DNA from: a virus
Reading direction: 5' to 3' (one strand)
IMG/VR virus record: IMGVR_UViG_3300020450_000079
Location: 1 to 27,110 of that record
DNA: 27,110 nucleotides
Positions 3,001-22,415 of this stretch are shown piece after piece (position 1 is the first letter of the stretch; each line of letters opens with the position of its first letter). Under the pieces are notes generated by a model. It was not told the origin of the DNA. It ran no database searches and saw only the letters and a program-made list of their open reading frames with translations. A program made the position numbers and the translations under genes.

Positions 3001-6000
3001 AGTTATCCACGTCCACAGGTTGATCCTTTTGCTGGCAAGTCTATTGAAATTACTGATGTAGCATATTCAGAACAAACTGCTACAGATGCAACATATAATC
3101 CTCACTCTGGTGATTTAGAGATTACTGTTGCGAGTCATGGATTTACAGGACCACAAGAATTTACACCTTTAGTCTCAGCATTAACTACATATGACCCTGC
3201 AACTGGCATATTAACACTTAATATTCCTAACCACGGTTTGCAGAATGGCGAGTATGTTAGAATCGCTGATGGTGCAATATCATTTACATGTACTAAGGAT
3301 AATGACACTCAAGCATATGCATACCCAAGAGCAACTGACCCTGCAAGTGGTAAGAACCTAGTCGTTAGTAACGCACAGCAAAGTACATTTGATGTTAATG
3401 TTGGTGTTGCTACTGGTCTTGGACAATATGTACATACAGTCACAAGTGTTGTAACTGGTGGTGTAACTTCTGGTGGAGATTACATTCAAATTGCAGACAA
3501 TTCACTAAGTTTCACATGTGATTTAGATGCGAACGCTGGTGCAAAACCATATCCTCGTACTGGATTTGATTTACCAAGTGGAAGATGGTTACAAATCAGA
3601 GCTGTAACTGCAAACACTTTTGTTGTTAATGTAGGTAAATCATCTAACCTATCTACACATACATTTGATAGTGCTGTTGCTAATGGTATTAGAAAGCAAA
3701 CTGGTAATATCACAATCAACGTTGGATTTGATAGTAATACTAACAATCAATATACCCACACATGGGATAGTGCTTTGACAAATGCTGTTGAGTTCTTACC
3801 ACAGTCTGCACATACATTTGTATCTGCTGTTGCTAACTCTATCAAGTATACACCTAATGCTGCTCACACATTTAAGAGAGGAGCAACAGGTGGAATAGCA
3901 AGACAAAATGGAACTATCACTGTTAATGTTGGTCCTTCTGCACCTGCTGATCGTTATGCTCATATATGGGCAGGTGGAACTGCAACTGGTGCTGTAGTAA
4001 GTGGTGGTAATTATACACATGCATGGGTAAGTTCTGTAGCAAACTCAGTTCATAAAGTATTCTCTATTGCTGGTAATAGAAACTATCACGATCAAGATTG
4101 TGTTGATGATACAGTAGATGTATTGGAAGCAATCGCAGATAACGTAGCATACGGTGGTAACGATAAGACATGGGATGCTGCATATTCATACAAGACTGGT
4201 GCTCACGTTGCTGGTGAAGAAATTGAAACTAATGAGGTCTTCCGTCACGCTAAAGAGATGGCAGGTCAAGTTATTAAGAACCAAAAGATTTTACAAGTTG
4301 GTGGATCTGGTATTAGTCAGGTATTTGATACCACTATTACAGAAGACACTCCAACTGCTGTTGATAACAAGAGTGGAGATGCATACAATCTATTAATTGC
4401 AAACGCTGCATTCATTGCTAGTGAAGCATATGATAGAATGATCTTTGAGTTTCCAGACTTCACACCCCCAACTGGTAACCCACAAGATTGTAAGGATGAC
4501 ATCAAAGACTTTGTTGTTGAGATAGCACATAACGTAGGATTTGGTGGAAATGATAGAGTCCTTGACATGGCAAACCTATATGTATTAGGTGCTTATGTTG
4601 TTGGTGAAGAAGCACAAACATTGAAGGCATTTGAGGATGCTAAAGAATTGATGCTTCAGGTAGCAAGAAACGAAAAAGTTCTTGTAAGTGGATCACATGG
4701 AAAGACTCAAACATTTGATAATACTATTACAACTGATCCTTCAATACCATCTACAGTAGAATCTGGTAATGCAAAAAATCTAATTCTTGATAACAAAAAC
4801 TTTATTGCTGAGATTGCATTAGGTAGAATGCTTGCACAGTATTCTAACTATGTTTCACCACAAGGTTATACTACTAACGACTGTCTTGATGATCTTAAAG
4901 ATGTTGTTGAAGTTGTTGCACACAACGTAGCATTTGGTGGTAATGATCGTACATGGGATGCTGCACTATTGTATAACGCTGGTGCTCATGCTGCTGGAAC
5001 TGAAAATGAAACAATCTATGCGTTTAATCAAGTTCGTGATATTATTAGACAAGTAATTGTAAATGAAACAGTTACTGTTGGTGGACACACAGCACTTAAT
5101 CAAGCAACAAATGCAAGTATTGCTGCTGGTATTGCCAATGGCGATTATGATTCTGCTAAAGATACAGCTACTACACTTGTTGGCATCTTAACTAATGCTA
5201 TCAACACACCATCATCATTGTATCAGATTACTCGTACTGAGTCTACATCTAAATGCACTGGTGTTGTATCTACAATCACAACATTATACACAATCATTAA
5301 AGATGCTATTACAACTCCAGAAAGTCTCCTGTCTATAACAAGAACAGTTTCAGGTGGTAAGTGTGATAACATCAAGTCTACTATAGACACATTATTTGGT
5401 ATCATAACCAGCACTGTATCAAATGGTTCTGCTCTTGATTCAGTATCAAGAAATATTTCTAATGGTTCTTGTCAAGAAGTTGCTTCAACAATTACAACAT
5501 TGTTTAGCATCTTAACAAATACAATATCTACCACTGGTTACTTAGATACTATTGATAAGGTAGAGATTCCTTTGGGATTATCATTAGGTCAATCTGTAAA
5601 TGCAAACTCTACAACTACAGACACATATCTATGGATTACTTGGCCATCATCGGGTGGTGTTCCTGACACAGGTATCTACACAGATAAGAAACCAGTTATT
5701 GATGCGTTCTTCAATAATGACCCTGCTAATGCTGCTAATCAAGATACAAATTATCCTGAATGTGCTAATGAAGCAACAGCTGTACGCCAATACTTTACCA
5801 ATATTGCTACAATCATACAGTCTGGTTTAGGAACTGTTACTAGAAATGAACCAGTATCATCTTCTGCATTGTCAAGAAGAGCAACTATCTTTACACTTAC
5901 AGATCCATCCAAAGCACCAGCAAATCAATCTGATCCACATAAGTTAGAGACAGGAACACCAGTAAGACTTGTTCCCCGTCCTAAATCAGGTGCGACAGTT

Positions 6001-9000
6001 GACAAGAGAAATGTTAGACTTCCAAATGGATTTGATACTAACGAAGAATACTATGTAATTGCACCAGGTAGAGAAACAAATCCACAAGATTTTGCTGCTA
6101 CAACAGCATTCAATGGATTGCAACAAGATGTATTGATGCTTGCAAGCAGTAAAGAAAATGCTGCTGCTGGTATTTACTTACATTCTCAAGAAGTTGGTGG
6201 CATTCATCCAGATATAGAAATTGATTTGTATCAGTTTACTATTGATGATAGTTATGACTTACATCAATATGCTTGTACATTGGTAAACAATGGTATTCAA
6301 ACTGATGTATCTCACATCTTTGATTTACCAAAACCAAATGTACCTGAAGGACATCCAGTATTCTTCAGAGCAGAAATTGGTAAAGATATGCCTACCGTTG
6401 GTGGCACTGATGCTAATGACCCTGCTGTTACAGTACAAAGTGGTGTTGACATTGGTAAACTAAGAGGAGATAAAGAATTCTTTGCGAGATATATTACACC
6501 TAAAGTATTCAAGATTTATAGAACACACGCTGATGCTATCAACGATGTAAACGCTATTGATCTTACTACCTCTGCTAATATTGGTTTCAATGTATTTGCT
6601 AACAAGCGTACATCACCAATGCGTTTTGATCCTAGTTTTGTTAATCCACAGGTATCAGACAAAGGTAAGTGGTACTTACAAGTTGAACCAAATTCTTCTG
6701 GAGCACCTGCAACATCACAAGAGATTCTTGCAAGACTTCATGACACAGAATATAACGATGCATCTGGTAATACTAAGTCTAATGACACATGGTATATTCG
6801 TCTAAAAGATGATAGAACTCCAAATGATCGTATCTATCGTTTCCGTTATGTAATTCCTAGCTACCTCAAATCAGTTCGTGATCCTCTAAATGGATTTACG
6901 CTCAAGATGAGGAAGGATGAAACAAGAAAACTTCTTCCACAGAAAATTGTTCTTAAACCTGCTTCAGGCAATGCAGTAACCAAAGCAATCTTCAATAATA
7001 CTACTGATAGTGGTCAGGCAAATGAAATAATTGGTATGACTGCTGCACAGTTTGCAAATCCTGGCAACAATCAACCTGCATTGGATACAAGTAAGAGATA
7101 TGATCCATTTAGAAAAGATCTAACAGGTGCTGGTAAAGAATTCCAAGCATATATCAGAACTGACTCTAAGATTCAAGCAACTATTCAATCTGGTAGATAT
7201 TTTGTTGATGCTACAAGTGGAGATGAATTACTTGAATTAACAGTATTTGATCCTGAAATTGATTCTCAAGTACCTGCATTAAAGAATGAAACATTAACCA
7301 CAGTTAAGATAACTGCACCTCAAGGTGGCACATTTATTTCTAATACTGCTAACCCTGCAACAGGTTATTTCCAAGATACGAAAGTAGAGTGGGATGGTAA
7401 TGATAAGGGAACTGGTTACATTCATGCTGCTCTTAATGTTCCTGGCACTTCAGAATGGCATTTGATTTTAAAAGGTATCTCAGGAACATTAGATTATAGT
7501 TCTACTGAAGATACTAGATTTACACAGGTACAAACTAATACAGTTGTATTTGCAGATCAACTTGCTGATCCTGATGATGGTAAATCATTAGCACTTAAAG
7601 AACTTATTCGTAAGGGTTACCCTGAGTTCTATTATAAGGAAAAGTCATCTAATGTATACACACTTACTGCTGGTGATAGTATTACAGACCAAGCAGGTAA
7701 TCAATACTACATCGCATCCGTAAATGATATTGGTGAAATTGATGACACATTCTACATCTTTGATGTGGAAGAAATACAGAGACGTATTTTTGAACAGCAA
7801 GATGGTATTTTCTATCTAACTGCTGTTCGTGGTAATATCTCACCATTCCCAACTGGTGCTGGTAACCTTGGTAACTTTAGAAACTTTAAGTTCTCTCAAC
7901 CAATCAGTAAACTATTCCCATTAAATTATAAGAACGATCCAGTATGGTTCAAACAGTTAGATCCTAACCTTGTTGATCCACCAGCAACATTCTCTGCTGC
8001 TGATAACTATGTTCATGGTTTAGTTACTGTTAATGACTTCAAAAATTCAATTACTAAAGAAGCAGTTATTGATTTCTTACAGACACCATCACTTAATCTA
8101 AACACTTACACTGGTGACAACGCAATTCAGGCACAAGATGGTAACGCTGCATCAGGATCTGAAGATCGTCAGATTCCTATCGCTGGTGACAACACAGTTG
8201 TTGTTGATCAGAGATTGTATGTTGAACTTAGACGACCATCAATAGCACGTGCTGGTAACCATACGTTTGAATATCTTGGTTTTGGACCAGGTAACTACTC
8301 AACTGGTTTACCTGCAAGACAAGAAGTTATACTGACTGTAGAGCAAGATTTCTTTGCACAGTCTAAGAAACAAGACGGTGGATTAGTATTCTATACTGGT
8401 CTTAACTCAAATGGTGACCTATACATTGGTAACCGTAAGATTGATGCTATCACTGGTGAGGAAGTATTCTTAGAGTCTGCATCGCTGCAAGATTCTGAGG
8501 ATCCAGACGATATCATTGATAGTCTTGTTACTACATTTGATACTCCTGTAACATTCAACCAAAACATTACAGTTAATGGTGGTGATGAAGGTAAGTTAGT
8601 CAATACATTCAACTCACCAGTAACTGTTAATGTTGCTAGTGGTTTAGGATTAACATCATTTAGAGTTCTCTCTACTGTAAATCCAAATGCCACACCTGTG
8701 GGTGATGATGAGACACTTGATAGATCATCACAACAGGGTAATACTTTAACCAATGGTGACATTGTTCTTAATAAGAACATGATTGCTGCTTCTGTATTCC
8801 AGTTCAACCCACGTGGTTCTAATGGATTTGCACAAGGTTATAAGATTCAAAACCATGTTGTAGGAACCGAAGGTTCAAATGCAACTCCTTCACAGAGTGC
8901 AACTGGTAAAGATTACTTTGATTCAACACAGGTGGTACGTTATGGTACTAATGGTGCTCTACCTGTACCTGGCGACATTCTTCTCAAGGGTGATAGCGTT

Positions 9001-21378: not shown

Positions 21379-21398
21379 GACACATTACAAACTGTCAC

Positions 21399-21422
21399 AA
21401 GCACCCACACAGGGTGCTTTTT
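21399..21422 (+). terminator. Intrinsic terminator closing the structural operon
   Basis: An 8-bp stem AAGCACCC / GGGTGCTT (21399-21406 with 21412-21419) with an ACACA loop, running into a T tract (21418-21422). It lies 20 bases after the stop at 21378. Confidence 0.9.
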
Positions 21423-21424
21423 AA

Positions 21425-21433
21425 TGCTATGAT
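21425..21433 (+). promoter_or_regulatory. Extended -10 promoter for the structured RNA
   Basis: TGCTATGAT is an extended -10 element (TGn plus TATGAT) directly after the terminator T tract. No -35 is seen, which is typical of extended -10 promoters. A start about 7 bases downstream (near 21440) would fall at the 5' end of the long closing helix at 21436, supporting a separate transcript. Confidence 0.6.
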
Positions 21434-21435
21434 AT

Positions 21436-21640
21436 ATGTGTTGAGAGGATATGTGGTTCTCTAGCCCCAAACCTACTGACTAGTCTGACTTAGAAGCAGA
21501 CACATGACCGTTGGTAGAAACCTATTACTGCACAGACAGATGGTTGAAAGTGGTGGGGGTACAGGTGCAAGCGATTCCCTAGAGTTAAATTTGGGCATAT
21601 AGGTGAAACCTATGTTGATGCCCCACTCCTCTCAACACAT
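21436..21640 (+). ncRNA. Candidate structured RNA of about 205 nt, family unknown
   Basis: Bases 21436-21449 (ATGTGTTGAGAGGA) are perfectly complementary to 21627-21640 (TCCTCTCAACACAT), a 14-bp helix closing 177 nt. After a 3-base bulge it can continue GTGG/CCAC (21453-21456 with 21623-21626). Inside are a long arm opened by CTCTAG/CTAGAG (21459-21464 with 21579-21584) with CCCC facing GGGGG (21465-21468, 21555-21559), a hairpin GTCTG/CAGAC (21483-21487 with 21497-21501), and a separate hairpin GGCAT/ATGCC (21594-21598 with 21618-21622) capped by ATAGGT-GAA-ACCTAT. The whole resembles a three-way junction. The segment is visibly more GC-rich than its surroundings and has no good ORF. It may be a free RNA made from the promoter at 21425, or a leader for the gene at 21661. 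I do not recognise tmRNA, RNase P, 6S or intron signatures. Confidence 0.65.
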
Positions 21641-21660: not shown

Positions 21661-21903
21661 ATGCTTTCTCAATTGAACAAGGACATTGATTACTGCACAC
21701 GTGTGTTGGAATGTAATGCAGAGCAGACTGATGAACTCATTGCTGCTGCTGAACGATTAACTGTAAACGTAGAATATTTCTGCGAAGAGTTTATTGTTGT
21801 ACCTGAAGATGAGAATCCATTAAAGTATCAAGATGAAGATTTCATGGATATAGATGGATTCAATTCATATCATGGTATCTACTTTGAAGAAGTAGATCAA
21901 TAG
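21661..21903 (+). CDS. Small acidic hypothetical protein downstream of the structured RNA
   Basis: 80 residues (MLSQLNKDIDYCTRVLECNAEQTDELIAAAER...). The N-terminal half looks helical. The C-terminal half is strongly acidic (VVPEDENP, YQDEDFMDIDG, YFEEVDQ). No ribosome binding site precedes the ATG (CTATATTATTACAGTC). A possible -10 TATATT at 21646-21651 would start a nearly leaderless message; the other option is read-through from the structured RNA. The gene is followed 30 bases later by a clear terminator, so it forms a single-gene unit. No family recognised. Confidence 0.65.
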   Translation: MLSQLNKDIDYCTRVLECNAEQTDELIAAAERLTVNVEYFCEEFIVVPEDENPLKYQDEDFMDIDGFNSYHGIYFEEVDQ

Positions 21904-21987: not shown

Positions 21988-22185
21988 ATGATCGCATCTG
22001 AATTTTTTGGTATGACATTTTGGTTTGATGATCACAATGACCTAATGTATTGCCCCACATATACAACAGGAGCACCAGCACTAGACCAATCAGGTTACGT
22101 TTGCGAATGGGATGATTGGGAAGGTGTTGACATGAGCGAATTATTTGCTATAGTATCAAAGTTAATCACACTCAAGGTATCTTAA
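21988..22185 (+). CDS. Small acidic protein, family A copy 1
   Basis: 65 residues. The core FFGMTFWFDDHNDLMYCPTY...YVCEWDDWEGVDMSELF aligns with the protein at 24739 (HFGRTFWLDENDDFCSAPTY...YVSEWDMEGVDFDKLF) and more weakly with that at 25859. It has about 11 acidic and 2 lysine residues, so it is strongly negative, and is rich in aromatics. I believe related short proteins are common in marine T4-like phages, function unknown. It has its own promoter and leader after a terminator and starts a run of closely packed genes leading to the possible nuclease and methyltransferase. A regulator, or a DNA-mimic inhibitor, would fit the charge, but this is speculation. Confidence 0.75.
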   Translation: MIASEFFGMTFWFDDHNDLMYCPTYTTGAPALDQSGYVCEWDDWEGVDMSELFAIVSKLITLKVS

Positions 22186-22187
22186 TC

Positions 22188-22415
22188 ATGGATGTTATTC
22201 TTGAAAAGTTCCCATACCGTTATGTTCAAGACGGTATCATTAAACTAAATGGTAAACCAGACTATCGTATTCAAAAATACAATGAGTATACTAAAAGATA
22301 CAACGACATGTATCTTTGTGATAATGTCATTCAATTTGATCTTGCGATAGAGGATACTGATTATACTAAATGGTTGGATCCTGAAGGTGTACCATGCTAT
22401 GTTAAGGATGACTGA
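22188..22415 (+). CDS. Hypothetical protein (75 aa)
   Basis: ATG two bases after the previous stop. Its TGA shares a base with the next start (TGATG at 22413-22417), which implies translational coupling to the possible nuclease gene. The sequence is tyrosine-rich (FPYRYVQDG, DYRIQKYNEYTKRYNDMYLCD) with mixed charge and no recognised motif. There is no membrane segment. Confidence 0.7.
   Translation: MDVILEKFPYRYVQDGIIKLNGKPDYRIQKYNEYTKRYNDMYLCDNVIQFDLAIEDTDYTKWLDPEGVPCYVKDD

Follow-up and report, generated by a model that had tools for sequence, protein, structure and literature searches.

What is the folded intergenic segment at positions 21,425–21,640 of a 27,110-nt stretch of viral DNA (IMG/VR record IMGVR_UViG_3300020450_000079, hereafter the window), and what does it do? 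An earlier note on this DNA had read it as a 205-nt structured RNA, either a free regulatory RNA or a riboswitch-like leader of the 80-residue gene behind it. The anatomy it described holds at the level of the window: closing helix P1 pairs ATGTGTTGAGAGGA (21436–21449) with TCCTCTCAACACAT (21627–21640) perfectly at 14 of 14 positions and encloses 177 nt, and the nested helices CTCTAG/CTAGAG (21459–21464/21579–21584) and GGCA(T)/(A)TGCC (21594–21597/21619–21622) give a three-way junction in both sequence and fold. The segment is, as stated there, richer in G+C than its surroundings (46% versus 35–36% in the 500-nt flanks) and has no ORF reaching 50 aa on its plus strand. Its RNA folds at −66.8 kcal/mol, compared with −55.9 ± 4.3 in shuffles (z −2.6; 1 of 200 shuffles equal), and the comparative structure described below lies 3.8 kcal/mol above this minimum-energy fold. 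Because the opposite strand folds about equally well (z −2.9), folding energy alone carries no strand information, and comparative data have to decide the strand. The note's failure to recognize a known RNA family was confirmed: covariance-model search against Rfam 15 (4227 families, including manA, wcaG, 6S and tmRNA) gave no match to the segment at gathering or relaxed thresholds, while manA in phage P-SSM2 was found by the same database at 142.84 kb with 181.6 bits as a positive control, and ARAGORN called no tRNA or tmRNA in the segment. Mimicry of the 23S rRNA GTPase centre through the conserved UUAGAAGCAG loop was considered and rejected because the TTAGAAGCAG loop gives way to inserts in relatives, which replace its UUAG part.

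Blastn against annotated phages located relatives of the segment, as intergenic and unannotated stretches, in single-cell marine phage contigs as well as in P-SSM2 and P-SSM5. In IMG/VR, CAGGTGYAAGCGATTCCC matched at least 119 stretches, homologue counts being lower bounds, and pattern scans combined with a covariance model yielded at least about 130 homologues, which lie in contigs of marine phages and in the Prochlorococcus phages P-SSM2 and P-SSM5. Among the matches listed, complementary P3 strands occur in 116 of the 124 copies parsed, and the remaining eight lie at contig ends, vary in the CC behind P3, or carry long or altered inserts. The invariance of the CAGGTGYAAGCGATTCCC motif is partly by construction because the motif was the search anchor; a second scan with another anchor (TAAATTTGG..GTGAAAC) returned five additional cores by covariance model, and the four of them whose alignments were printed are each one base off the first anchor. 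The core is normally a single-copy element: across 27 records tested, whole P-SSM2 included, it occurs once in 24 of the 25 positive records and twice in one (G004), and it is absent from P-SSM7 and S-SSM4. The nearest named relatives of the window are Kyanoviridae cyanophages, by weak matches that come chiefly from one methylase gene. A bacterial origin was rejected, with 53 motif matches in bacterial genome contigs against a chance expectation of about 60 for 16 fixed bases. Since the motif occurs there at roughly the chance rate and the core was absent from the cyanobacterial matches examined, the family is phage-only as far as tested. On this sequence evidence, the predicted folded RNA is common to many ocean viruses of cyanobacteria.

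Comparison of these relatives leaves almost no doubt that the segment is a genuine structured plus-strand RNA. In a structure alignment of 31 diverse cores, with inserts trimmed to their ends, 93.2% of the P1–P6 cells are paired, versus 75% in shuffled and 37–55% in slid alignments, and none of 500 shuffles did as well. Compensatory changes that alter both sides affect 23 of the 31 pairs, and they were found among marine phage homologues in the helices that the earlier note had singled out. Complementarity of P3 (≥5/6) served as a parsing criterion and is not independent evidence, whereas P1, P2, P5 and P6 were not selected for. P1 has 54 distinct strands among 103 loci, mostly of 8–14 bp, and its non-Watson–Crick replacements comprise 30 G-U against 1 A-C, in a register set on Watson–Crick pairs only and in related sequences, so these are not independent events. 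This asymmetry indicates selection on the RNA of the plus strand and disfavours a DNA cruciform or a minus-strand RNA. The moderately unusual folding energy (z −2.6), taken by itself, would still accommodate a chance fold or an unselected intergenic hairpin; the probability of such an origin is practically nil, as the homologues keep their pairs through compensatory change and the G-U/A-C asymmetry refutes it as well. Many loop positions are also invariant across the 31 cores.

The note's structured RNA therefore stands, but not as a uniform 205-nt molecule: the window locus is a conserved core of ~120 nt plus a swapped-in insert at ~21468–21555. The 5′ strand of P1 (21436–21449), supported by fold and homologue covariation, is followed on the plus strand by a UAU bulge at the P1–P2 junction (21450–21452; UAY in most members), the P2 5′ strand GUGG (21453–21456; GUGG/CCAC, ACGG/CCGU, GCGG/CCGC and AAGG/CCUU among homologues) and the P3 5′ strand CUCUAG (21459–21464), which occurs in 11 sequence versions, all complementary under the parsing criterion. 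From homologue comparison, CCC (21465–21467) is the P4 5′ strand and base of a socket arm, closed in the comparative structure by GGG (P4 3′ strand, 21556–21558), with the exchangeable insert in between. Behind it lie a highly conserved internal loop UACAGGUGCAAGCGAUUCC (21560–21578, in part the search anchor), the P3 3′ strand CUAGAG (21579–21584) as placed by homologue comparison, and a junction strand UUAAAUUU (21585–21592), whose consensus in the alignment of cores is GUAAAUUU. P5 (21594–21597/21619–21622) encloses the P6 hairpin AGGUGAAACCU (21601–21611), the whole spanning 21594–21622 with 100% pairing and compensatory changes that were no selection criterion, and homologue comparison also places the P2 3′ strand CCAC (21623–21626), after which fold and covariation put the P1 3′ strand at 21627–21640. 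The earlier note had missed the socket arm with its nested modules because relatives are needed to see it.

Between the CCC and GGG of P4 the homologues carry at least 74 different inserts of 16–233 nt, with turnover at orthologous loci. Among the matches listed, GAA...AGUA, a frame that resembles the bulged-G (loop E) motif, bounds 45 of 74 inserts, and 19 of 74 open with CCCCAAACC. Locus pairs that share their 400-nt upstream flank have different inserts in 46 cases and the same insert in 20; the closest pair with differing inserts (L066/L123) is 98% identical in the flanks. The window insert holds the M2 module (21473–21517, plus strand; motif GAC..AGAAGCAG..ACAUGA) with an outer helix at 21473–21480/21510–21517 and an inner helix at 21484–21487/21497–21500. 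The inner helix was a selection criterion in the M2 collection, while the outer helix covaries independently, 6 of its 7 pairs being changed on both sides. M2 forms a separate RNA family, with at least 27 copies inside core RNAs and at least 27 elsewhere. It is also found by itself in phages without the core, namely P-SSM7 (L007, 2501–2537) and S-SSM4 (L284, 1293–1326, upstream of tRNA-Val). Module A (GCAAGGATC...GTAAGTC, 55 nt) occupies four or more distinct RNA arms and also occurs free-standing: in the core P4 (L005, L017, L123), in the first M2 loop (L024, L058, L077, L116), in the second M2 arm (L058, L084), in the F loop (L006, L044) and free-standing (L002, L031, L061, L069). It is alone in P-SSM2, whereas in the closely related P-SSM5 it lies within the loop of the RNA that precedes it. 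We are highly confident that folded modules are exchanged in the P4 arm of the core. A wider reading, in which marine cyanophages possess a combinatorial RNA system of self-folding modules that move and plug into one another's arms on fixed cores, is offered more tentatively; its repertoire would comprise the core, M2, A/B, E, F, H, I and others, and movement could be at the DNA or RNA level.

Two further modules have features of their own. A perfect 6-nt palindrome follows all 28 of 28 copies of module I (GAGGAGATGGATGTGCCTC..GAACTAACATCC), which occurs in L018, L021, L113, L121, P-SSM2 at 55.98–56.1 kb (L002, 1808) and others, and the palindrome takes five sequences (GCTAGC, CCTAGG, CACGTG, CCATGG and CTATAG). 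Self-complementarity, rather than sequence, is seemingly what is kept, and this pattern suggests RNA homodimerisation. Module H is an H-type pseudoknot in which both stems covary, with all cells (100%) paired and compensation at 8 of 16 pairs, found behind the core in L012, L032, L036, L054, L094 and L113 and alone upstream of P-SSM2 purM (L184, ~44050); the P-SSM2 copy has no Rfam match.

The surroundings of the core bear on its role. The terminator reported just upstream in the window corresponds to a terminator-like hairpin (AGCACCC-ACACA-GGGTGCT-TTTT, 21400–21422, plus strand) that is recognized by eye and falls just below the consensus-scan threshold, and the extended −10 reported with it (TGC-TATGAT, 21425–21433, plus strand, with no good −35) puts the expected start near 21440, inside the P1 helix. 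The same hairpin and promoter block occur in S-SSM4, where the RNA is absent. Across loci, at least 5 of 6 TATAAT positions are matched just upstream of P1 in 60%, versus 26% in shuffles, and the spacing, mostly 2–6 nt, would put the transcription start at or inside P1. About 40% of loci have no good −10 directly before P1, and at some (e.g. P-SSM2) the core lies behind another module. Behind P1, T runs are weakly above chance (≥5 T in the first 8 nt at 21 of 78 loci, 12 expected); P1 as an intrinsic terminator was rejected, as these runs barely exceed those of shuffles. A Shine–Dalgarno sequence is missing from 77 of 78 spacers behind P1, a start codon lies 9–22 nt past the RNA at about one-quarter of loci, and further RNA modules often follow the core. 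No conserved neighbour gene was found among the testable loci, where upstream and downstream genes vary widely and the downstream genes of 87 loci fall into 27 unrelated clusters. The 80-aa gene directly behind the window RNA (21661–21903, plus strand) has no PHROG match and, in agreement with the earlier note, no Shine–Dalgarno; its homologues are equally placed in L035, L058 and L044 and also lie behind the core in L040 and L043.

Several other elements were observed in these regions. Several small-gene-operon promoters and many cores are preceded by an imperfect inverted repeat, TGTGCCAG..CTGGCACA, which is possibly a phage promoter element. In P-SSM2 L183 it is represented by the D1/D2 repeats (e.g. 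5757–5782 and 6569–6590), and a related GACACATTACAAACTGTCACA is at 21379–21399 of the window. A strong sigma-70-like promoter (TTGACA-16-TATAGT, 11/12) is located at window positions 22127–22154, within the end of a 65-aa ORF and before the gene at 22188. Behind the F module in L006 and L011, an element that opens with TGCCCTGTTGGTA and ends with GTGGTTCAATTCCACTTAGGGTA resembles the T arm and acceptor of a tRNA that carries a large insert; a tRNA-like identity for this element behind some cores was rejected, since ARAGORN calls no tRNA. The gene downstream of the core in L031 is HNH endonuclease-like by motif. Freestanding homing enzymes could contribute to the mobility of such pieces between genes, and no consistent association of HNH-type genes with the core was found among the loci.

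Judged from this context, the core RNA is probably the structured 5′ leader of cyanophage transcripts at most loci; genes or RNA modules lie close behind the core and T runs are weak, which favours a leader over a free RNA. A free trans-acting RNA would be cut out behind P1 and bind a phage or host protein, or an RNA, with its highly conserved loops, the insert being neutral ballast or a specificity tuner. Such an RNA would account for the many invariant loop positions over the 31 cores, the normally single copy per genome, as for an RNA gene, the pairing of both ends in P1 and the lack of a tie to any particular downstream gene, but it sits poorly with the missing clear terminator behind P1 (again 21 of 78 loci with ≥5 T versus 12 expected), and the closeness of the genes that follow, which at many loci show no evident promoter of their own. 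We consider a free RNA of this general kind unlikely, although, given the conserved loops, one with a bound partner is nearly as likely as a folded leader. More unlikely again is a ligand-sensing riboswitch or cis-regulator of the following gene, in the manner of the manA and wcaG RNAs of the same phages. The 27 unrelated downstream clusters among 87 loci, with no consistent regulated gene class, the normally single copy per genome and the absence of a visible expression platform (neither a terminator nor a sequestered ribosome site) weigh against it, even though the RNA is placed between promoter and first gene, has a compact junction with conserved loops and finds a precedent in manA, which occupies a comparable place in P-SSM2 (142.84 kb) and is listed together with wcaG as a cyanophage candidate in Weinberg 2010 (PMC2864571). 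The specific proposal of a riboswitch-like leader for the 80-residue gene is not favoured because that gene follows few cores and the clusters are so varied.

An improbable reading is that of a mobile hairpin element that spreads for itself, needs its fold for mobility and brings the phage no benefit. Modules do move, nest and merge, inserts turn over, module A occupies different sites in P-SSM2 and P-SSM5, and the core is found at many unrelated loci; however, the core does not multiply inside a genome (one in 24 of 25 positive records), its fold is under tighter constraint than that of simple palindromes and it is promoter-proximal at most loci. Cyanobacterial genomes hold small dispersed repeats that are tiny, apparently mobile and structured. 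These resemble the phage modules by description only, and they belong to host genomes and have no conserved core RNA. A closer parallel in style is offered by the GC clusters and double-hairpin elements of yeast mitochondria, in which small folded units relocate, fuse and are shuffled among neighbours (PMC4478555). Those clusters are simple palindromes with many copies per genome and flanking short repeats, whereas the phage modules sit in the arms of a conserved, normally single-copy core and no target-site duplication was seen by eye at module A sites.

Taken as a whole, a promoter-proximal folded leader whose preferred role is to shield messages from decay is the best explanation, and we hold it as possible rather than established. 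The core RNA, to judge from its anatomy, would be the first thing transcribed at most loci, and a start at or inside P1 would bury the 5′ end in a helix of 8–14 pairs whose sequence is free to drift. The core, often with modules behind it, would occupy the 5′ untranslated leader of operons with varying content and act as a knot at the 5′ end that shields phage messages from 5′-end-dependent decay by the host (RNase E and the 5′–3′ RNase J). The conserved loops would stabilise the core fold or serve as the binding site of a single factor, and we propose that modules move between RNAs because the socket tolerates, and would accept, any self-folding module. Host RNase E rises under phage P-SSP7, and antisense RNAs shield phage transcripts (PMC9692554); RNase J is a 5′–3′ exonuclease on non-triphosphorylated ends and is essential in cyanobacteria, as implied by failed knock-outs (PMC10989914). 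Protection from host RNase E/J decay is the preferred role, yet a doubtful one in its own right: the highly conserved loops exceed the needs of a simple 5′ plug and suggest a specific partner, and a copy number of normally one per genome fits poorly with a general protector of messages.

Among known RNAs, T4 species C and D are stable phage-encoded small RNAs, and the core RNA is like them, by description only, as a phage-encoded small RNA with a putative role in T4-like phages. To our knowledge, Rfam has taken up most motifs of a 2017 study of 224 candidate RNAs, and novelty against that set rests on the Rfam negative. In the open-licence literature, no precedent is known to us for a conserved RNA that is single-copy and has exchangeable nested modules. 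Reports of manA, wcaG and glnA RNAs in cyanophages exist (PMC2864571, PMC9964418), and manA and wcaG are riboswitch candidates in Weinberg 2010 (PMC2864571). The core RNA is like manA (RF01745) and wcaG (RF01761), which are large structured RNAs that take leader positions in T4-like cyanophages and have a putative function. It differs from both in giving no sequence or model match, in having no tie to gene classes such as the literature gives for them, and in its exchangeable nested modules, which the literature examined does not describe for manA or wcaG. The core RNA is thus another structured cyanophage RNA, but a separate, uncatalogued family.

Abundant ocean phages thereby gain a strongly supported RNA family that had not been catalogued. 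Folded RNA pieces are exchanged as building blocks between non-coding RNAs, for which P-SSM2 and P-SSM5 provide a natural before/after pair, and how RNA modules move becomes testable. If the combinatorial reading is true, non-coding RNA would have a mobile-module architecture that no known protein drives. It likewise becomes testable whether phages that face raised host RNase may protect their messages by folded 5′ ends.
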